This document shows positions 2,549 to 21,890 of a stretch of DNA of 42,585 nucleotides, one piece after another. The translations under genes and the position numbers were made by a program. The stretch comes from Caldithrix sp. (GTDB taxonomy: Bacteria; Spirochaetota; Leptospiria; Turneriellales; Turneriellaceae). Location: contig DYKF01000003.1 in assembly GCA_020722745.1 (NCBI GenBank), positions 1 through 42,585 of the forward strand. The letters run 5' to 3'. The notes beneath the pieces were generated by a model. The model was given only the letters and a program-made list of their open reading frames with translations, was not told the origin of the DNA and ran no database searches. Each line of letters starts with the position of its first letter. Positions within the stretch are counted from its first letter, which is position 1.

Positions 2549-3577
2549 ATGGCAACCGCCCGCGTGATTTTTGCTGTCAGCTTAGCATTGTGGCCCGTAT
2601 GGAACAGCCATGCTGATTTCCGCCCATATGGAACAACGTTTCATGGAGCGGGCGCCGGCGCCGGCAATACAGGTACGTCGTGGTCTCAAGATATATCCGC
2701 GCTTTCTTACAATCCATCGTTTGCAGCCAATGCCATCCATGGAGGCGCTGCGCTCAGCGTGCTCGGTTCTACGCGGGTGGACAATTTCAATGCGCAAAAA
2801 GCTGTATCGGCATCAGAACTCCCACTGCTCGCCGTTCTTATGCCATTTTGGAGCAATTACTCTACTGGCCTGCTTATTCATTCACCCTTTATGAGAGGCT
2901 ATCCAGATGGGAGCTATCGGTATTATGCCATAGAGCCAGTGCTTGCCGTTTCGCTATCGCGGCACTGGAACGCGGGTTTCACTGCTGGCCTCGGCGTAGC
3001 CAACCAGTCCGACCTGTATTTTGGCTACGCCTTCAGCTCCTCTGTTTCTGTCTCTTGGACGGGAGAGCAGTTTTCCTGGGGGGCCCTCTTCCGGCCAGGG
3101 GCATCGTATTTGCTGCCATCGCCCATATCTCTGAGTCCCATACAGGAAACCCACCCGGGTCTGTTTCGCACCGGAGTAGCTTGGAGAAGCAAAGAAATCA
3201 TCCTCGCCCTTGAAACCGAATATACAGACTGGAGAAACGCTCTGTACATAGAAAACAACGTGAATCTGGTTCCATCTATGGAAAGTGGATTTCTGGATTA
3301 TTTCACACTTCATGCAGGAGGCACTTTTCCTATCGCATTCTGGAAAGGTTTGTTATTTCGCAGCGGTGTGCTCACCGAAAACTACTATTCAGCAGACGGG
3401 AAAAACGATAGACAATGGCTGATTACAGCAGGACTTGGCGGATACGCCGGAAGCGAATTCTGGGGGGAAAAATTGAAGATAGATTTTTCTGTCGTCTCTT
3501 CGTATCTCTCTTCTTTTTTCAGGAAAGAATCCCACCAGATAGAAAGGGTTATTGCCACCTTTGAATTTCGGTACTGA
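2549..3577 (+). CDS. Probable outer membrane beta-barrel protein
   Basis: From the ATG at 2549 the product has 342 residues and a Sec signal peptide (MATARVIFAVSLALWPVWNSHA). The mature part has alternating hydrophobic and polar strands rich in Gly, Tyr, Trp and Ser. It ends in FEFRY, a C-terminal aromatic residue typical of outer membrane barrels recognised by BamA. The style resembles FadL/PorV-like or DUF5723-type barrels, but no family can be assigned. The open frame extends upstream into the LOG gene. A TTG at 2489 with AGGGG just before it is an alternative start, which would add 20 residues ahead of the signal peptide. The gene follows LOG by 67 bp and precedes the HEAT lipoprotein by one base, so the three are probably cotranscribed. 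Confidence 0.72.
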   Translation: MATARVIFAVSLALWPVWNSHADFRPYGTTFHGAGAGAGNTGTSWSQDISALSYNPSFAANAIHGGAALSVLGSTRVDNFNAQKAVSASELPLLAVLMPFWSNYSTGLLIHSPFMRGYPDGSYRYYAIEPVLAVSLSRHWNAGFTAGLGVANQSDLYFGYAFSSSVSVSWTGEQFSWGALFRPGASYLLPSPISLSPIQETHPGLFRTGVAWRSKEIILALETEYTDWRNALYIENNVNLVPSMESGFLDYFTLHAGGTFPIAFWKGLLFRSGVLTENYYSADGKNDRQWLITAGLGGYAGSEFWGEKLKIDFSVVSSYLSSFFRKESHQIERVIATFEFRY

Positions 3578-6582: not shown

Positions 6583-7737
6583 TTAAATTTTCATGGGCAT
6601 GACAAGCGCAAGAAAGTCCGCATCGTCAGTATCAAAAACAACAATCGGACGCGCTGAATCGTTAAATCCAAGTTTTACCGTTTCACAGCTCAATGACCGA
6701 AGAATGTCTATCATATAGGTTGCGTTAAAACCGATCTGAAGCTTTTCACCTGTATAGCCAATGGGCAGAGTCATCTCTGCCGTACCAACCTGGGGAGTAT
6801 TCGCAACGAGGTGGAGTTCTCCTCCCTCAAGGGTTAAGCGAACCTGAAACGAAGGCGGCTCTGTCATTACCTTTACCTGAGACAAAGCATTGAGAAGATC
6901 TTCCCGATTCAGCGTAAACTCGATAGAAAGGCTCTCTGGAATCACGCGTCTGTAATCAGGAAATTTGCCTTCTACCAGGCGGCTCACGAGCTCTGCGTCT
7001 CCAATCTTAAAAAATATGTCGCGCTGTTCTACTCCCAGTTTTACAACTGGGGCAGAGTCTATGAGCTTTTGCAACTCGCGGATGGCTTTGGAATGCACAA
7101 CCGTATCGGCTGCTGCATCGGGCGAAAGCGTTACGGGATTCTCTAATGTACGACTGATAGCAGCAAGGCGGCGCCCGTCTGTACCCACAATAGTAAGTTT
7201 GTTGCCGTCAGCCTGAAAAGCAAGGCCATTGTAAATATAGCGATTATCTTCCTGTGTAATGGAGTAGATTGTTTTTTTAACCATTTCGTCAAGTACGGCA
7301 GACGGAACATTAGAAAGCCTGTCTTCGGAGACCTGGTTAATGGCAGGAAAAAGAGATCGATCTTTGCCAGACATTTTATAGCGGGCAGAGCTTTTTCCAG
7401 AACCTTCTATTAACACGTCATATAGGGTTTCATCAGATTCTACGGATTCTGCATTCTCGGGTTCTACAGTCTTAAATACAATCTGATCGGAACGGAGCTG
7501 GCGTGCAATTTCTGAAAACTTTTTTGCCCGCACAATAATTTCGCCCTGCTCTGTATTTTCTGCCGGCACGGCTATGCGCACGGTACTTTCCATATCCGAG
7601 GCAGTAATGCTCACCGAGTCTTTCTCAATGGTAATAAAAACATTCGACAGAAGCGTAGTTGTTTCGCGGGCCGGCACAATTGTATCAATGCGAGCCATTG
7701 CTTTTTCGATGAGATCTTTACCAGTTTGAAATTTCAT
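6583..7737 (-). CDS. dnaN: DNA polymerase III beta subunit (sliding clamp)
   Basis: The beta clamp is a ring-shaped homodimer that tethers polymerase III and many repair proteins to DNA. The 384-residue product shows the typical three-fold repeated clamp fold. Recognisable segments include YKMSGKDRSLFPAI in the middle, FKIGDAELVSRLVEGKFPDYRRVIP around residue 255, FNATYMIDILRSL near residue 340, and the conserved C-terminal MPMKI. The ATG at 7737 gives MKFQTGKDL, the normal beta-clamp N-terminus, and has GGAG 12 bases upstream; a longer frame to 7770 lacks support. It precedes recF and is divergent from the small gene at 7861. No dnaA is adjacent and no cluster of DnaA boxes was seen upstream. 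Confidence 0.95.
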   Translation of the reverse strand: MKFQTGKDLIEKAMARIDTIVPARETTTLLSNVFITIEKDSVSITASDMESTVRIAVPAENTEQGEIIVRAKKFSEIARQLRSDQIVFKTVEPENAESVESDETLYDVLIEGSGKSSARYKMSGKDRSLFPAINQVSEDRLSNVPSAVLDEMVKKTIYSITQEDNRYIYNGLAFQADGNKLTIVGTDGRRLAAISRTLENPVTLSPDAAADTVVHSKAIRELQKLIDSAPVVKLGVEQRDIFFKIGDAELVSRLVEGKFPDYRRVIPESLSIEFTLNREDLLNALSQVKVMTEPPSFQVRLTLEGGELHLVANTPQVGTAEMTLPIGYTGEKLQIGFNATYMIDILRSLSCETVKLGFNDSARPIVVFDTDDADFLALVMPMKI

Positions 7738-7860: not shown

Positions 7861-8157
7861 ATGGACTGGGAAACATTACTATCGCGCGGATTAACCGATG
7901 GCAAAATCCGCGAACTCCACCTGTACAAAGTACCCGTGCTGAAAACGTGCGACAACTGGTCTGCCGTAAAAGAACTGGGGCGGGTAGATTTCAAGGGAAA
8001 ACATTCCGATTACCATGGGGCTCTTGTGAAATATGCAGAGAAATTCTACTTTGTCACGGACGCCCGCATAGAAGCACTTGCTCCGTACAGAAAGTGGGAT
8101 CTCAAGAAAAAAATTTCTGTCATCCCGGAAGCAGAAGCCAAAAAGCCTTCTAAATAA
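7861..8157 (+). CDS. Small conserved-looking protein of unknown function
   Basis: The 98-residue product (MDWETLLSRGLTDGKIRE...) is soluble, mixed alpha/beta, with a basic Lys-rich C-terminal tail and no signal peptide. No family is recognised. The ATG at 7861 has GAAAGG six bases upstream, a good ribosome binding site, and codon use looks normal, so the gene is likely real. It is divergent from dnaN and ends next to the stop of the minus-strand STAS/zinc-ribbon gene (convergent, no gap). A competing minus-strand frame in the same DNA has poor composition and was dismissed. Confidence 0.7.
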   Translation: MDWETLLSRGLTDGKIRELHLYKVPVLKTCDNWSAVKELGRVDFKGKHSDYHGALVKYAEKFYFVTDARIEALAPYRKWDLKKKISVIPEAEAKKPSK

Positions 8158-8823
8158 TCACCCGCCGTACGTAAACTTAAGTCTGCAGGAAGGGCATATA
8201 TATTTGCCCGGTTTTGTTACTTTTAATTTTGTGCCACAATTCTGGCAGAATATTTCGCGAACACCAAACGCAACAGAAACTTCTACCGGTTTCTCAGGAA
8301 CCTCTTCGTCTGATTGTGCAGTCTGTTCTGCAGGTTTCTCTGCCACAGACTGAATCTGGGGGGCGGCTGGCAAAGGTGGCGTTTTCTCCAGATTCTCTTC
8401 TGAACTGGAAAGCTCAAGAACCCCCGAAGATTTTTCGGATTCTATAGCTTCACTTTTCACTATTTGTGGAGCCGTGATTTCTACTCCCTGAAAATAGGCT
8501 GCTGCCTCGCTTTTTCCACTTAATACCTTGATCTTATCGGTTATATGAAAGAATCGGAGCAAACGGGAGATTTCATCATTCACATGAATGAGAACGGCTT
8601 CGCCTCTCATTTTGCGCAAAATAGTCTGCACTTCCAGAAGAACAGCAATTCCACGGGAAGACAAATACTCAAGGTCAGCTAAATTGAGAGAGAGATAGCG
8701 GTATCCATCGAGAATTTTTTCTTCTACCCACGATTTAAAATCAGAGCTCGTCTGTGAATCGAGAGCCCCGGAAAGATCGACGACAAGAATTTTGTTATCT
8801 TTCACTGTATTCATTTCCAGCAT
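8158..8823 (-). CDS. STAS-domain protein with C-terminal zinc ribbon
   Basis: The first 105 residues form a STAS (anti-anti-sigma factor type) domain: LVVDLSGALDSQTSS, then LSLNLADLEYLSSRGIAVLLEV, where the canonical DSSG site reads LSSRG, keeping the serines but losing the aspartate and the usual SG pair. A Pro/Glu/Ser-rich linker of about 80 residues follows. The C-terminus is a treble-cysteine-pair zinc ribbon, FCQNCGTKLK...ICPSC, two CxxC pairs 13 residues apart. The start chosen at 8823 (MLEMNTV) has AAAGG six bases upstream; an ATG at 8838 would overlap the upstream sensor gene. STAS domains are switched by serine kinases or bind partners, so this protein probably acts with the membrane sensor encoded immediately before it. 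Confidence 0.8.
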   Translation of the reverse strand: MLEMNTVKDNKILVVDLSGALDSQTSSDFKSWVEEKILDGYRYLSLNLADLEYLSSRGIAVLLEVQTILRKMRGEAVLIHVNDEISRLLRFFHITDKIKVLSGKSEAAAYFQGVEITAPQIVKSEAIESEKSSGVLELSSSEENLEKTPPLPAAPQIQSVAEKPAEQTAQSDEEVPEKPVEVSVAFGVREIFCQNCGTKLKVTKPGKYICPSCRLKFTYGG

Positions 8824-8824
8824 A

Positions 8825-9748
8825 TCAGGCCTTTTCATCCTCGATAAAAATTGCCTCTACAGCTTCCTGCTTTCTGGGAGGCACCGGAGAAGCAATTGTC
8901 TTTCTCTCTAACTCTGTGATTTTATTCTGGAGACCTTGTACATCGCGCGAAAAAGCATCTTTCATGTATTCATTTTCAAGCCTGTATCGAATAGCCTCTT
9001 CCCATGTTCTTTGAACATACAAAAATCTTCCGTGAACTGCTACAATCAGCAAAGCGCTTAACAAGAGGGCAAACACAACGGAAACCAGCAGAATCTGCCC
9101 CAGTGAATGCAGAAGTTTTTCGGCCTGGGCCTGCAGCAGCGTATCTTCCATGGCAACATGGATCGATGCCATCACTTCACCTTTTGCATTGAATAGCGGC
9201 GCTGAATACAGATGCACCCGTTTCAATGAGGCAAGGTAGCCTGCCTGCAGTGTATTGTTTGTTGCCGGTATTTCAAAGGGCCAGGGGGAAACCTGAATTT
9301 CGCCGCGTGGAATCGTAAGAGCTTTCTGGAAAGCCTCTTTGTTGTACCGATCCGAAATCATATTTACGGAATCACCGCGCGGGCTCACTTTTGTAAAATC
9401 ATTGTGCGAAAGCACCTCGCCCTTTTTGCCAAGAATAAATACTTCGTGAATTCTTATTCCATGTGTTTTTTCACTCATGACAATCCCTGCAAATATTCCT
9501 GACAGTTCCATGCTCGTTTTATTGTCGAGTGGATAGGCAGATGCCACGCCAAAAAGTGTTCGCGCAAGCTGGTAATTTCTATCCATTGAGTACACCTGGA
9601 GATCACGTACCTGGCTTTTGCCGAACATGAGTCCTCCAGCCAGCACTGCTGCAATAGTAATAGTTAGTATGGCTAAGGTCAGCAATACTGCAAAAGACAG
9701 GGAAATACCCACCCTGTAGACTGGTTCCACGGAAGTCGCTGGTTTCAT
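8825..9748 (-). CDS. Membrane sensor protein, two TM helices, Cache-like periplasmic domain, no output enzyme
   Basis: The 307-residue product has a membrane helix at about 14-41, a periplasmic domain at 42-215, a second helix at about 217-239 and a cytoplasmic tail with a coiled coil at about 250-283. The periplasmic segment (for example IHEVFILGKKGEVLSHND and LYSAPLFNAKGEVMASIHV) has the two-strand sensory pattern of Cache/PAS-like ligand-binding domains of chemoreceptors and kinases. No kinase, cyclase or methyl-accepting domain follows, so signal output probably passes through the coiled coil or a partner. The STAS/zinc-ribbon gene follows directly. A near-consensus sigma-28 promoter ends seven bases before the ATG, implying coexpression with flagellar genes. 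Codon GTG at 9712 is an alternative start. Confidence 0.8.
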   Translation of the reverse strand: MKPATSVEPVYRVGISLSFAVLLTLAILTITIAAVLAGGLMFGKSQVRDLQVYSMDRNYQLARTLFGVASAYPLDNKTSMELSGIFAGIVMSEKTHGIRIHEVFILGKKGEVLSHNDFTKVSPRGDSVNMISDRYNKEAFQKALTIPRGEIQVSPWPFEIPATNNTLQAGYLASLKRVHLYSAPLFNAKGEVMASIHVAMEDTLLQAQAEKLLHSLGQILLVSVVFALLLSALLIVAVHGRFLYVQRTWEEAIRYRLENEYMKDAFSRDVQGLQNKITELERKTIASPVPPRKQEAVEAIFIEDEKA

Positions 9749-9755
9749 AGCTTCA

Positions 9756-9782
9756 GTATCGGCTGTTTTAAGAAAAGTTTTA
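9756..9782 (-). promoter_or_regulatory. Sigma-28-like promoter of the sensor/STAS operon
   Basis: The minus strand reads TAAA-N15-GCCGATAC: the -35 matches the FliA/SigD consensus completely, the spacer is the standard 15 bases and the -10 matches seven of eight positions. The -10 ends seven bases before the ATG at 9748, so the start point of transcription should fall at or near the start codon. Confidence 0.65.
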
Positions 9783-9798
9783 CTTTTCTATCAGCCGA
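9759..9798. other. Two-tier inverted repeat overlapping the sensor promoter
   Basis: TCGGCTG (9759-9765) pairs with CAGCCGA (9792-9798), and inside it AGAAAAG (9771-9777) pairs with CTTTTCT (9783-9789). The element overlaps the sigma-28-like promoter and lies after the mnmC stop, so it may be an mnmC terminator (without a T run), an operator, or both. Confidence 0.45.
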
Positions 9799-9834: not shown

Positions 9835-11712
9835 TCAAAAGAATATTTTTTCCGAAGGCTGGCGGCGGAGATTCCGAATTAGAAACCTGCCAGGATTCAA
9901 GAAAGCATAATCGGCCGGAAGAATATAATATGGCTCGCCGGCAATGTCGGCGGCAAGCTGCTCTGCCAGCAATGGTCCATAGACAAGTCCCCTGGCACCA
10001 AGCCCGCTTAAAATATAGAGATCCGGAAAGTAACTCTCCGGCGAGTCCGGATACTCCGCTGGGCGGCGCGCTTTTAGATTGGCCACATACTCTCTGGAAT
10101 ACGAATCTTCCCTGGGAAGCCTGCCAACCAGAGGAAGCCTGTCATAGGTAACCGCGCGAAAACCGACGCGCCCCGGCAGAGAAGCTAAATCGGGCGAATC
10201 GGTTTGCGACTTATAGTCTTCCTCCAGCTTTTCCCATAACTCAAAATTCTTCTGCTCGTCGTAATCGCGGTGTTCAAATTCTTTTTCGAAGGTGGCTCCA
10301 AGCAAAACTTCTGAACCCAGCGGAATTGTGTATACCCTGGAAGACACCGGAAAGCCGGCAAGATTCTGAAAAGAGTGCGAGGGAACATAGACTACCTGCC
10401 CTTTAATTTCTCGCAGTGGCAGCCACGAAAAATCCTTCCCCCGTCTGGCCGCAGCAGCATTCGCTAAAATTAATATCTCTGCTCGCCCCAGAATGCCGTT
10501 CGCTCCTGCAAGCTCCCATTCCCCGCTGCGATACTCAAAGTTCTCCACGCGCTCTCCCAAATGAATCGATATCCCGGGATGGCTCATAACCGATTCACAA
10601 AAACAGGACGGCTGTACAAATCCAGAAAACCCCAGCCAAGAGTTGCGCCCGTCTGCCTCTATAAACGCTGCCGGGAAATTATAGCGGGCAATCGCCTTAT
10701 GCATGCGAACCTCTTCTTGCTCTGTCTGGATGTTCAGCAAACCAGTCTGATGAAATTCGTGGCAACCGTATATATCTCTCAGATGATTCACCGTAAATGA
10801 ATAGCCGCTGGCATTCAGCCGCGTCATCACAGAATCGTCGCCACTCATATGCGGATGAACCATCCCGGCTCTGTTTCCCGAACCCTCGGCAGCAAGCTCC
10901 CAACGGGACTCAAAAAGATGCACGTGGTATCCCCTGCGTTCAAGTGCCAGCGCAGAAAGACAACCAGCAATGCCGCCGCCAATAATGGCTACAGTCTGGG
11001 GCTTGCGCATGGCGTGGGGTGGAATGCCCTCCCGGCGGGCTACCAGCATTTCTTTTTTTCTGCCAAAGCCGGGAACCTTCTCTGTTATAAATCCCTGGGA
11101 TCGAAGCCTTTCGCGCACCATGGCAGAAACGGTATAAGTAGCCACCGTGGCATTTGGCCTCGACAGCTTGCCCACTGTCTTAAAAACAGATTCTGACCAC
11201 ATTTCTGGATTCTTTTGTGGAGAAAATCCATCGAGATACCAGGCATCTACCGGTCCATTCCATAGTTGCATTCTCTCTGCCTCCCCCACCAGCAACCGCA
11301 GCTCTATGCGGCCATCGTCAAAGAATATACTGTGCAGGCCATTGGGCAAAAGCGTATAGCGGCCCAGAAAGGTCTCGGCAAACGGTATGGCGCAGGCATC
11401 GAGAACCTGCAACAGTATGTGTCTTGGTAGAAGTTTTTTTTCGACAGACATGAAAACCAGCCGGGAAGGCCTTTGCTGGTGTGGCAGCGATAGATATAAA
11501 TCGGCTGTTAGAATAAAATTTAAACCCGTGCCAAAGCCCAGCTCTGCTATAACAAATAGATCGGGAGCAGCACTCCAGCGACTCACGAGAGCATTGCCTT
11601 CCATAAAAACGTGCCGCTTCTCTGCGCAACCACCCTCGCGAGAATAATAGATATCCCCAAATTCTTCGGAATAGAGAGAGTTGCCAGAAAAATAAAATTC
11701 GGAATTGTTCAT
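9835..11712 (-). CDS. mnmC: Bifunctional tRNA wobble-uridine modification enzyme MnmC
   Basis: MnmC completes 5-methylaminomethyl-2-thiouridine at the wobble position of certain tRNAs: the FAD domain removes the carboxymethyl group and the SAM domain methylates the amine. The N-terminal methyltransferase domain (about residues 1-240) shows VIAELGFGTGLNF and DAWYLDGFSPQKNPEMW. The FAD oxidoreductase domain begins with VAIIGGGIAGCLSALALERRG near residue 245 and ends with LSGLGARGLVYGPLLAE. About 625 residues matches the fused form. The start at 11712 (MNNSEFYF) is preferred; an ATG at 11751 adds 13 poorly conserved-looking residues, and neither has a clear ribosome binding site. It stands alone upstream of the sensor operon. 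Confidence 0.92.
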   Translation of the reverse strand: MNNSEFYFSGNSLYSEEFGDIYYSREGGCAEKRHVFMEGNALVSRWSAAPDLFVIAELGFGTGLNFILTADLYLSLPHQQRPSRLVFMSVEKKLLPRHILLQVLDACAIPFAETFLGRYTLLPNGLHSIFFDDGRIELRLLVGEAERMQLWNGPVDAWYLDGFSPQKNPEMWSESVFKTVGKLSRPNATVATYTVSAMVRERLRSQGFITEKVPGFGRKKEMLVARREGIPPHAMRKPQTVAIIGGGIAGCLSALALERRGYHVHLFESRWELAAEGSGNRAGMVHPHMSGDDSVMTRLNASGYSFTVNHLRDIYGCHEFHQTGLLNIQTEQEEVRMHKAIARYNFPAAFIEADGRNSWLGFSGFVQPSCFCESVMSHPGISIHLGERVENFEYRSGEWELAGANGILGRAEILILANAAAARRGKDFSWLPLREIKGQVVYVPSHSFQNLAGFPVSSRVYTIPLGSEVLLGATFEKEFEHRDYDEQKNFELWEKLEEDYKSQTDSPDLASLPGRVGFRAVTYDRLPLVGRLPREDSYSREYVANLKARRPAEYPDSPESYFPDLYILSGLGARGLVYGPLLAEQLAADIAGEPYYILPADYAFLNPGRFLIRNLRRQPSEKIFF

Positions 11713-11831
11713 AGCCAAGGAAAACTCAAAGCCACAAAAAGATGAGTACATTCCTTTGGTAGAAAAAAAATGGTTGCACCGTTATCTAAAAGAATTACTC
11801 TCTGTCAGTAATTTATAAAAGGGAGATGAAT

Positions 11832-19579: not shown

Positions 19580-19985
19580 CTTTCTGTTTATACTCGCTGC
19601 CAGCATGAGCGAGCGGCAAAAATGCTTCTCCGTTCCACATCATTTCCTGTTTTAGGTAGTATCCCTTGTTGCAGAATATTCTGTCTGGCTGATAAATAGT
19701 CCACGCCGACACTACCTGCTGCATTGAAATATATCCGGCTGAAAACCACAGGGCCACCGAACTGTTCGGTATAGCTCGCTCAATGCGTTCCAAATACCGG
19801 AATAGATCTGCCCGGTTCGTGAGTTTTGAATAGCCTATGAACCGCGTCTTTTCGTCGCCTGCAGGTATGTCTGCGGAAAAATAATCATACCTGCCGATTC
19901 TCTTTTCTATAGTTTTTAAGGATTCGATTAATAGGTCCTGGTGAGTAAAGTGTATAGAGTAGAATGGAATAACTTTTTCCTGCAT
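19524..19985 (-). CDS. DUF4416-like protein
   Basis: The 153-residue product contains segments that fit the DUF4416 family by pattern: RYDYFSADIPAGDEKTRFIGYSKL, then SAGYISMQQVVSAWTIYQPDRIFCNKGYYLKQEMMW, and an aromatic C-terminal helix YKQKVTQFFFRSLH. DUF4416 proteins are small, cytoplasmic and of unknown function, common in deep-branching bacteria. The assignment is from memory of the family pattern and is moderate. It begins one base inside the end of the HEAT gene upstream (ATG at 19985 overlapping the TAA), so the two are translationally coupled, and its 3' end overlaps convergent tilS by 56 bp. Confidence 0.65.
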   Translation of the reverse strand: MQEKVIPFYSIHFTHQDLLIESLKTIEKRIGRYDYFSADIPAGDEKTRFIGYSKLTNRADLFRYLERIERAIPNSSVALWFSAGYISMQQVVSAWTIYQPDRIFCNKGYYLKQEMMWNGEAFLPLAHAGSEYKQKVTQFFFRSLHAALIAKLR

Positions 19986-21337
19986 TATTCAAACCTCTTC
20001 TTGAGAAGATCTCCAAGAATTTCTCCTGCCCTCTCTCGAATGGCCATGTCTTCATGCTCTCTTGAGAGAACAAACAGATCATGATAAGAATCGGTTGTAT
20101 CTATCCATCGGATCGCTTCTAATGCGGCTGATTTAACATAGTAGTCTTCGTCTTTATCGCGAAGTATAGCCAGTAAGTCGTTCGCAGATTCTCTTTTTCC
20201 ATAGCGGCCAAGTGCGAGTGCGGTTTCTGCCCGAATAATAGCGTTTTTATGCTTCAGATTTTTATGCACGGTTTCAAAGCCTCTAAAATCTGCGAGAACC
20301 CCTGATGTATAAATTGCCCACACGATAAGTTCTTCATTGTCATCATTTTCAATAATGCTTTGGAGACCCGCCATTCCCCCGCTAGATTTCAAGTGGAGAA
20401 GAGCCTGAATGCCAAGCAGTTTTAAGTGATCTTTCTTCTCTTGTGCGAGTTGCATTGAAATCGGATAGGCAGTATCAGAACTGTTAAATTCCATTAATGA
20501 ACGCAATGCTGCCTCTCTCACGGATGGATCCGGATCTGGCAGGGTGCGAACAATCACCTGAATTGCCTGTCTCGCCTTCATGGACGTTAGCACTTCTATT
20601 GCCTTAACCCGTACTTCGTTATTCTCATCGTTAGTGACAATTTTAATGAAGTGAGGAACAACCTCCAGGCGCTGCATTTCATCCAGCGTTCTAAGGGCAA
20701 AGAATCGTACAGATTTATTTTCATCACTCAAGGATTTAATAAGCAAAGGAACCGTTCTATCATCCTTAATAAAATACAGAGCATCCAAGGCATAAATTCG
20801 TTCTATGGGATTATCAGAAGTAGCCATGTCCATTATAATGGGATACATGCGGTCGTCCTTAAGAACTGCAAGTGTCTGGTAAGCACGCCTGCGGATATCG
20901 GTAAGCGGGTACGCAGTAAAGGGTATAACGTCGTAGAAATTACCAGAGAGTTTTTTCTGATCAATAATGGTCAACAGATTTAGAATAGCCTCTATGTCCT
21001 GAGCATCGTGGGCCTCTTTTTTGGCGAGCAATGTCTTTGTCTCCAGACTAACGATGACGCTAAATGTCTCCGGGGAAAAATTTATTTTGTGCTCGGCAAC
21101 GAGAGCTTCGTGCATCACGTGCCGCCGCAACAACGAATGGCCATCCTTTTTCAGCAGCTCGTCGAGATATACCCACAACTCATCTCGCTGCTCCAGCACA
21201 GCCTTCCAGTCTTCAATAATTTTTGCATCGTGGCCCTCGTTGATTGCTTCACGAATTTTTTCGGGATTAGCCTGCAGAGAGAGTAAGCTCGACAAGAATA
21301 ATGCAAGAATGCCGAAAAACCGCCGCAGCGAGAACAT
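19985..21337 (-). CDS. Exported HEAT-repeat protein
   Basis: The 450-residue product has a Sec signal peptide (MFSLRRFFGILALFLSSLLSLQA) and then about ten HEAT repeats of 30-35 residues. Clear repeat starts include YPLTDIRRRAYQTLAVL, NPIERIYALDALYFI, KSVRFFALRTLDEM, NEVRVKAIEVLTSM, PSVREAALRSLMEF, AIIRAETALALGRYG and YYVKSAALEAIRWI. It should form a periplasmic helical solenoid used for protein binding. It is divergent from the STAS gene at 21525 with a 187-bp shared upstream region, and coupled to the DUF4416-like gene. Confidence 0.85.
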   Translation of the reverse strand: MFSLRRFFGILALFLSSLLSLQANPEKIREAINEGHDAKIIEDWKAVLEQRDELWVYLDELLKKDGHSLLRRHVMHEALVAEHKINFSPETFSVIVSLETKTLLAKKEAHDAQDIEAILNLLTIIDQKKLSGNFYDVIPFTAYPLTDIRRRAYQTLAVLKDDRMYPIIMDMATSDNPIERIYALDALYFIKDDRTVPLLIKSLSDENKSVRFFALRTLDEMQRLEVVPHFIKIVTNDENNEVRVKAIEVLTSMKARQAIQVIVRTLPDPDPSVREAALRSLMEFNSSDTAYPISMQLAQEKKDHLKLLGIQALLHLKSSGGMAGLQSIIENDDNEELIVWAIYTSGVLADFRGFETVHKNLKHKNAIIRAETALALGRYGKRESANDLLAILRDKDEDYYVKSAALEAIRWIDTTDSYHDLFVLSREHEDMAIRERAGEILGDLLKKRFE

Positions 21338-21401: not shown

Positions 21402-21524
21402 TTGAGAATTTACATTCTGGCCGATGGGGTGCAGGTTTGCTGTTTTTGTGGAAACAGATTGACGCTTTCATTCAGGGTTACACACTATCAGGGCTCCCAA
21501 ATCTATTCTTATCAGGACTCAGTT

Positions 21525-21890
21525 ATGAACTTTGAAATAATCCACCGAACTAATGCATTGGAAGTAATTCTCTCTGGCAGAATCGATATAATCCAGGCCG
21601 AAAGCTTTGAAATTAACTTTGTGAAAATTCTGAAGGGTAATTCCGAAAAAACAGTAGGAATCAATTTATCGAGTGTTGAATACGTAGATTCTTCGGGGCT
21701 GGGGGTCTTGATTAAAGTACTGGATGAAGCTAAAAACCAGGGGAAGACAACGATGCTTTTCGGAGCCCCACCAAAAATACAAAACGTATTTCAACTGGCC
21801 AGGCTCGAAAAGTTTTTTCATTTTGTCTCCCCTTCCGAATTCGATTTAAAGCATCCGGACCAGAAAGACCACAAGGTAGAAGAGTTTTAA
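21525..21890 (+). CDS. STAS-domain anti-anti-sigma factor-like protein
   Basis: The 121-residue product is a single STAS domain: LEVILSGRIDIIQAESFEINF, then the canonical NLSSVEYVDSSGLGVLIKVLDEA containing the DSSG phosphoserine site, and PKIQNVFQLARLEKFFHF. Such proteins bind and inhibit serine-kinase anti-sigma factors when unphosphorylated. Unlike the STAS protein at 8158 it has a canonical site and no zinc ribbon. The ATG at 21525 has AGGA seven bases upstream; a longer frame to 21402 has a Cys-rich non-coding look. It is monocistronic and ends four bases before the convergent rplT stop, in an AAGAGTT/AACTCTT palindrome. Confidence 0.88.
   Translation: MNFEIIHRTNALEVILSGRIDIIQAESFEINFVKILKGNSEKTVGINLSSVEYVDSSGLGVLIKVLDEAKNQGKTTMLFGAPPKIQNVFQLARLEKFFHFVSPSEFDLKHPDQKDHKVEEF

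Follow-up and report, generated by a model that had tools for sequence, protein, structure and literature searches.

The window analysed here is a 42,585-nucleotide stretch of DNA, one contig (DYKF01000003.1) of a 3.05-Mb, 430-contig assembly (GCA_020722745.1, 98.9% complete) assigned to Caldithrix sp. of the Turneriellaceae, and its minus strand carries two adjoining genes that look like an undescribed signalling pair: a membrane-bound sensor and a protein in which a STAS domain is joined to a zinc ribbon. In the list of open reading frames (ORFs) and their translations, the sensor gene lies at 8825..9748 (307 amino acids) and the STAS-linker-zinc ribbon gene at 8158..8838 (226 amino acids as listed), overlapping the end of the sensor gene. 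The true start of the latter is probably 8823 (MLEMNT, 221 amino acids), directly past the sensor stop codon, because an ATG at the M6 column is kept in 90% or more of the orthologues. Upstream of the sensor gene stands a promoter-like sequence of the type read by the flagellar sigma factor FliA (sigma-28), with a -35 element TAAA at 9779..9782 and a -10 octamer GCCGATAC (consensus GCCGATAA) at 9756..9763, both on the minus strand. An earlier note, made from the letters of this DNA, had put both ORFs and this motif here, and the coordinates and translations agree. Order, class, family and genus are used below as the kinship labels of the genome search tool; we take its order and class to correspond to Turneriellales and Leptospirae of GTDB.

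The sensor was modelled with AlphaFold2 on 25 orthologues (mean pLDDT 78.3), and membrane spans and coiled coil were read by eye. A helix at residues 17-70 contains the first transmembrane segment and is followed by a Cache/PAS-like domain (about 76-202, its PAS-like sheet spanning roughly residues 98 to 202), a helix at 203-286 with the second transmembrane segment and a cytoplasmic coiled coil, and a disordered tail at 287-307. The top structural match is WalK (9a5d; VIA-align Z 15.2, root-mean-square deviation [rmsd] 3.0, 199 residues aligned), and DctB (Z 12.9), Tlp3 (Z 12.8) and CitA (Z 11.6) match as well, in a comparison in which Z under about 13 can reflect a common arrangement for long helices. 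Isolated Cache domains that have no membrane helices also match, among them that of Staphylococcus aureus WalK (5is1; Z 12.3, rmsd 2.5, 135 aligned), so the fold itself appears to be real. These matches argue for a single Cache domain, flanked by two transmembrane helices and predicted to be extracytoplasmic. Chemoreceptors are the source of many of the Cache domains matched. No ligand can be read from the fold, because the isolated domains of WalK, DctB, Tlp3 and CitA score much alike (Z 11.6-12.9). The earlier note's description of the sensor as Cache-like is thus carried by the model and not by Pfam, which gives no significant match for the window sensor (best E 0.26); 5 of 25 orthologues show weak matches to sCache_3_2, the best at E 0.0089 and none over the cut-off. 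Its further description of a sensor that has no output domain stands: Pfam and NCBIfam scans recognised no enzyme or output domain, and Pfam in particular gave no match to the signalling domain of methyl-accepting chemotaxis proteins (MCPs).

The partner consists of a STAS domain (PF01740, 53.6 bits against a cut-off of 22.6), a long linker that is of low confidence or disordered in the model, and a C-terminal CxxC...CxxC zinc ribbon (residues 194-219; 8182..8259, minus strand), in which C198, C201, C215 and C218 are all present, as had been claimed. The STAS model is closest to SpoIIAA (Foldseek: 1tid_B, E 7.4e-10, template-modelling score 0.86 by target), the best profile match is again SpoIIAA, and the protein passes TIGR00377, the model for anti-sigma factor antagonists (54.3 bits; cut-off, 53.45). 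The earlier note read the phosphorylation site as LSSRG for DSSG and suggested that switching may not be by the usual serine phosphorylation. The site is altered, but that reading was misaligned: the D-S-S-G of SpoIIAA aligns with S-S61-R-G, so that the changes are D to S and S to R, and the serine is kept. Ser61 (codon at 8656..8658, minus strand) aligns with the phosphorylated serine of SpoIIAA, presumably Ser58, and by this alignment we reject a phosphorylation-dead STAS site for the window. Of 42 aligned loci, 36 have Ser at this position, 2 have Asn and 4 have Gly, and the six loci with Asn or Gly, in which the site may be phosphorylation-dead, all belong to one family, f6. The column was invariant in a first alignment of 28 sequences because divergent loci had been left out; the 42-locus count is therefore the fair one. 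All four ribbon cysteines occur at 40 of the 42 loci; in the two misses (L095 and L228) the end of the contig cuts the ORF short. Two STAS orthologues (L093 and L099; L182 and L056 are the same genes) have two tandem zinc ribbons.

Conservation of the gene pair was among the checks proposed in the earlier note. A sensor profile matches 42 of 48 genomes of the class, in single copy, and 29 of the 30 class genomes that are at least 90% complete and at most 5% contaminated; the STAS-ribbon partner is found in all 42. The sensor of the sister genome (G001) is 96% identical to that of the window. Two genomes give two sensor pieces each, where the gene is split between contigs. By script, a same-strand STAS-ribbon gene follows the sensor gene at 42 of 45 loci; the other three are the two 5' halves of the contig-split genes, whose 3' halves (L075 and L078) have the partner, and L225, where an overlapping STAS frame has all four ribbon cysteines. 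The partner thus stands beside the sensor in 43 of 43 genomes, of which 42 belong to the class and the other is G085. Four of 32 ORFs (L088, L089, L095 and L100) had been omitted from the STAS alignment (A1) and one of 26 sensors (L069, with a run of unknown bases) from the sensor alignment (A2); of these, only L100, which lacks an adjoining sensor, stayed out of the later counts. One further order-level genome, the 18th (G002, 54% complete), gave no sensor match. Judged by these genomes, the pair is a single-copy module conserved across the whole class.

The cytoplasmic tail of the sensor varies in length and sequence, except for a short peptide near its end. At two of the 45 sensor loci the contig stops short of the tail; of the 43 complete tails that remain, 42 contain [DE]A[IVLYQ]x[LIV] within their last 40 residues, a pattern chosen after the alignment had been viewed. 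The single miss is L099 (DPIPA), a locus outside the class. In the sensor alignment, A stands at column 299 in 24 of 25 rows, D at 298 in 23 and I at 300 in 22, and all three columns are in the top eleven of the sensor's 307. The window sensor has E rather than D at column 298; by orthologue alignment its peptide is VEAIFIE (residues 297-303; 8840..8860, minus strand). A tail of the same kind, with DAIPV at its end, is seen in L183, another spirochaete record.

The promoter was described in the earlier note as a near-perfect sigma-28 motif directly upstream, and this description holds up well within the order. In the window, TAAA, a 15-nucleotide spacer, GCCGATAC and a further 7 nucleotides lead to the ATG at 9748, for a score of 11/12. 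In the first set, each of the 15 order-level genes for which upstream DNA was available has TAAA-N13-15-GCCGATAA at a score of at least 9/12, with TAAA, TAAG, CAAA, TCAA or GAAA as the -35 element (the second ATG was used for L082), and the 5' halves of two genes cut at contig ends fit this pattern (L079 scores 12/12; L086 has the octamer ACCGATAA at 6 nucleotides and a best total of 9). In all 17 order-level genomes with a sensor, from nine genera, the octamer ends 6-8 nucleotides before the ATG. At 7,291 ATGs of the same loci, true sites included, scores of at least 9/12 occur at a frequency of 0.0071 and of at least 11/12 at 0.00096, and the mean best score in the order is 10.47 against 8.31 for shuffled sequence (highest of 60 shuffles, 8.87); this background and these shuffles rule against a chance promoter. 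Among the findings that, by the earlier note, would speak against its proposal are a pair that is not conserved and a motif absent from orthologues; within the order both pair and motif are conserved, so neither was found there. Outside the order the motif claim stands less well. For the rest of the class, the best motif within 200 nucleotides has a mean score of 8.56 (25 genes) against 8.12 in shuffles (highest of 60, 8.40), and a -10-like octamer within 40 nucleotides of the ATG scores at least 6/8 in 12 of 24 genes and at least 7/8 in 6 of 24 (L087, which has no clear ATG, was dropped); the corresponding shares at 222 control ORF starts are 14.0% and 3.6%. We regard these looser FliA-like signals near the ATG as suggestive only.

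The sigma-28 consensus is printed as TAAAGTTT-n11-GCCGATAA in PMC2859248, which also places the start of the Escherichia coli aer transcript 6 bp downstream of the -10 octamer, and a spirochaete example is flaB2 of Treponema denticola, with CCGATAA at -10 and TTAA at -35 (PMC9481697). With the spacing of aer, transcription of the pair would start at the ATG or within about 3 nucleotides of it, and its mRNA in the window's order should be leaderless or nearly so. Leaderless mRNAs, of which about 440 are reported, are common in Leptospira interrogans, where at 37 deg C leaderless genes were under-represented in the cell-motility category (PMC5243855). FliA-like motifs also stand upstream of 28 flagellin genes (mean 8.07 against 6.18 in shuffles; highest of 100 shuffles, 7.18), two of the 30 flagellin loci (L154 and L165) having been dropped because no start was recognised. 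The window genome has only one other TAAA-N14/15-GCCGATA site (L102; G000:C113:19686-19710), followed, as read by eye, by a short coiled-coil ORF that has a leader and a Shine-Dalgarno-like site. The -10 box of the pair overlaps one arm of a 40-nucleotide inverted repeat (TCGGCTG...AGAAAAGT / ACTTTTCT...CAGCCGA; 9759..9798), which is near-identical in the sister genome (L010/L068) and was not seen by eye in the upstream regions examined from other genera. Seen in this genus alone, the repeat could be a terminator or an operator, and it does not explain a motif that other genera share.

Taken together, the evidence fits a model in which sensor and STAS-ribbon protein form a receptor-adaptor pair, the output-less inner-membrane receptor docking the STAS adaptor by its tail peptide and so feeding partner switching; we infer both docking and output, and we put the probability of this reading at roughly 0.4. 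In this model, FliA-RNA polymerase would transcribe the operon into an mRNA with little or no leader, and the pair would thus be made when late flagellar genes are on. We posit that docking of the STAS protein falls to the tail peptide, with the zinc ribbon as its most likely point of contact, since peptide and ribbon rank with the most conserved stretches of two proteins that otherwise diverge; what complete class members share is tail peptide and ribbon and not the STAS serine, which is why docking by the tail is proposed. Binding of a ligand to the Cache domain would alter docking and thereby free or hold the STAS domain, and the free domain would act by partner switching, with an RsbW-type anti-sigma kinase or FlgM as the targets we favour. 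Where the serine is kept, it would be a reset site. The window genome has FlgM (E 2.0e-9) and six Flagellin_N matches, along with 18 STAS domains, 16 SpoIIE matches and 10 HATPase_c_2 (RsbW-type) matches, none of the last linked to the STAS-ribbon protein. We speculate further, and with appreciably more doubt, that these sensors are a class of receptors that signal via a C-terminal docking peptide, passing an extracellular signal to the STAS-ribbon adaptor: a phosphatase-free sensory input to partner switching, whose leaderless FliA transcripts would make it the flagellar programme's own feedback sensor, with an optional phosphoserine and with the tail-ribbon contact as ancestral core.

Several observations weigh against the receptor-adaptor model. 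The fixed promoter geometry is found in 0 of 11 genes outside the order. A strict FliA motif is not enriched in the window genome (2 sites against 7 for reversed-pattern controls) and is little enriched over 21 genomes (70 against 44), and we rejected this weak genome-wide count as proof of a FliA regulon. The flagellin genes have long leaders and Shine-Dalgarno sites, unlike the sensor operon. FliA itself gave no match over the cut-off in the window assembly. The sister genome has fliA, in the middle of a stretch (L104) that matches contig C164 up to query base 966 (the match ends at 19996 of 20463) and continues on C43 from query base 3196 (the match starts at 212); since both contigs break around the place of fliA, we attribute its absence to an assembly gap and reject it as evidence of loss. 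At least two clusters of STAS, HATPase_c_2 and SpoIIE genes (G000:C399:4653-6058 and G000:C82:256-3732) resemble Rsb-type partner-switching clusters, so canonical partner switching has STAS proteins of its own. No anti-sigma kinase, PP2C phosphatase or FlgM was recognised beside the pair, among ten window proteins scanned and the ORFs of 11 loci viewed by eye. Finally, phosphorylation cannot be common to the STAS-ribbon family, given Asn or Gly at 6 of 42 loci.

What lies beside the pair also points in other directions. In 17 of 25 genomes of the two other families of the class (L085, L087, L091 and 14 further loci), murJ follows on the same strand, the two genes tested passing the TIGR01695 cut-off for MurJ; of the eight remaining genomes outside the order, two hold too little DNA to tell. 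This adjacency points elsewhere than motility, a further difficulty for our model, and makes an envelope role a live rival: the receptor would sense a cell-wall or periplasmic signal, the STAS-ribbon protein would act on MurJ or another membrane protein, as the STAS domains of MlaB or SulP act on transporters, and flagellar co-expression would match wall remodelling to the periplasmic flagella. Such a role would suit both the structural match at the top of the list, WalK being a wall-sensing kinase, and the loss of the STAS serine in some lineages. However, in the DNA retrieved for the 17 order-level genomes no murJ was found next to the pair; the MlaB model fits the STAS protein poorly (20.8 bits against a cut-off of 90); and isolated domains of several receptors match the sensor about as well as that of WalK. 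On balance we consider an envelope-growth module unlikely, if worth keeping in view.

A different neighbour is cheA, which all 7 genomes of genus g5 have upstream of the pair in divergent orientation (two genes tested match NF007835 at E 3.7e-117 and 1.1e-105, below the model cut-off). With the FliA-type promoter of the window's order and the many chemoreceptor Cache domains among the structural matches, it suggests that the receptor might gate a STAS-ribbon protein acting on the chemosensory array or the flagellar motor instead of on a sigma factor. That the sensor has no MCP signalling domain, that cheA adjoins the pair in one genus only and that STAS domains are classically regulators of sigma factors or transporters make such an accessory less probable still than an envelope role. 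We think least of the idea that the promoter is a chance or sigma-70 site, the operon constitutive and the pair an ordinary conserved regulator. A strict motif that is not enriched in the window genome and little enriched elsewhere, the inverted repeat around the -10 box in this genus and a geometry that is not kept outside the order speak for it, but the same distance in all 17 order-level genomes, from nine genera, each at a chance of about 0.007 or less, makes it improbable.

How does the pair compare with known systems? The Leptospira-type sensor orthologue L090 resembles NF047550, the model of the LIC_12071 family of Leptospira, whose function is unknown (272 bits, E 7.4e-81, below the cut-off of 350), and it too adjoins a STAS-ribbon gene. 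The window sensor itself has no match to this model, its homology to L090 resting on the A2 sensor profile, and the Leptospira family differs from the window pair in promoter geometry and neighbours. In the open-access literature, under the tags searched and in the parts of the texts available, LIC_12071 appears only in a row of an expression table, where LIC12071, a hypothetical protein, is raised 2.08-fold in dialysis chambers (PMC3953431). With SpoIIAA and RsbV, which are the closest solved structures, the STAS protein shares the fold and the serine at the phosphorylation position; it differs from them in its linker and zinc ribbon, its constant membrane-receptor neighbour, the two replaced residues of the site, and the lack of a recognised kinase next door. 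STAS switches are otherwise known with phosphatase sensors, response regulators or stressosomes. WalK, DctB, CitA and chemoreceptors have, like our sensor, a predicted extracytoplasmic PAS/Cache domain between two membrane helices. They carry kinase or MCP outputs, whereas only a coiled coil and a peptide tail make up the cytoplasmic part of the window sensor. A STAS protein tied to flagellar sigma control is PA3347 of Pseudomonas aeruginosa, which we take to be HsbA. As described in a STAS review (PMC8256260), it binds FlgM, thereby affecting sigma-28, and is controlled by the response regulator PA3346. The likeness to HsbA is that of a STAS protein with a tie, here putative, to flagellar sigma control; FlgM binding by the window protein would be conjectural, and in place of a response regulator the window protein has as its neighbour a Cache receptor in which no catalytic domain was recognised. 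The word "zinc" does not occur in the available part of that STAS review, nor "STAS" in that of a review of Leptospira sigma factors (PMC12655853), and we found no description of an output-less Cache receptor paired with a STAS-ribbon protein in the open-access literature searched.

Around the pair, the window holds an mnmC-like gene (9835-11751, by domain match) upstream of the sensor gene and, convergent to the pair, a small plus-strand ORF of 98 amino acids (7861-8157), beyond which domain matches identify dnaN and recF. The small ORF has no Pfam or NCBIfam match; homologues lie convergently downstream of the pair in 9 of 17 order-level genomes, and its predicted product is, on this evidence, a conserved protein as yet undescribed. 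A second STAS-domain protein of 162 amino acids (21402-21890, plus strand) adjoins a HEAT-repeat protein (19985-21337, minus strand).

The presence of the pair, in single copy, in nearly all examined genomes of the class, relatives of Leptospira included, suggests a means by which a Cache receptor could be linked to a STAS switch, one in which the tail peptide and zinc ribbon are more constant than the phosphorylation site. It may bear both on how sigma-28 activity may be controlled in spirochaetes and on how wall growth may be matched to their periplasmic flagella.

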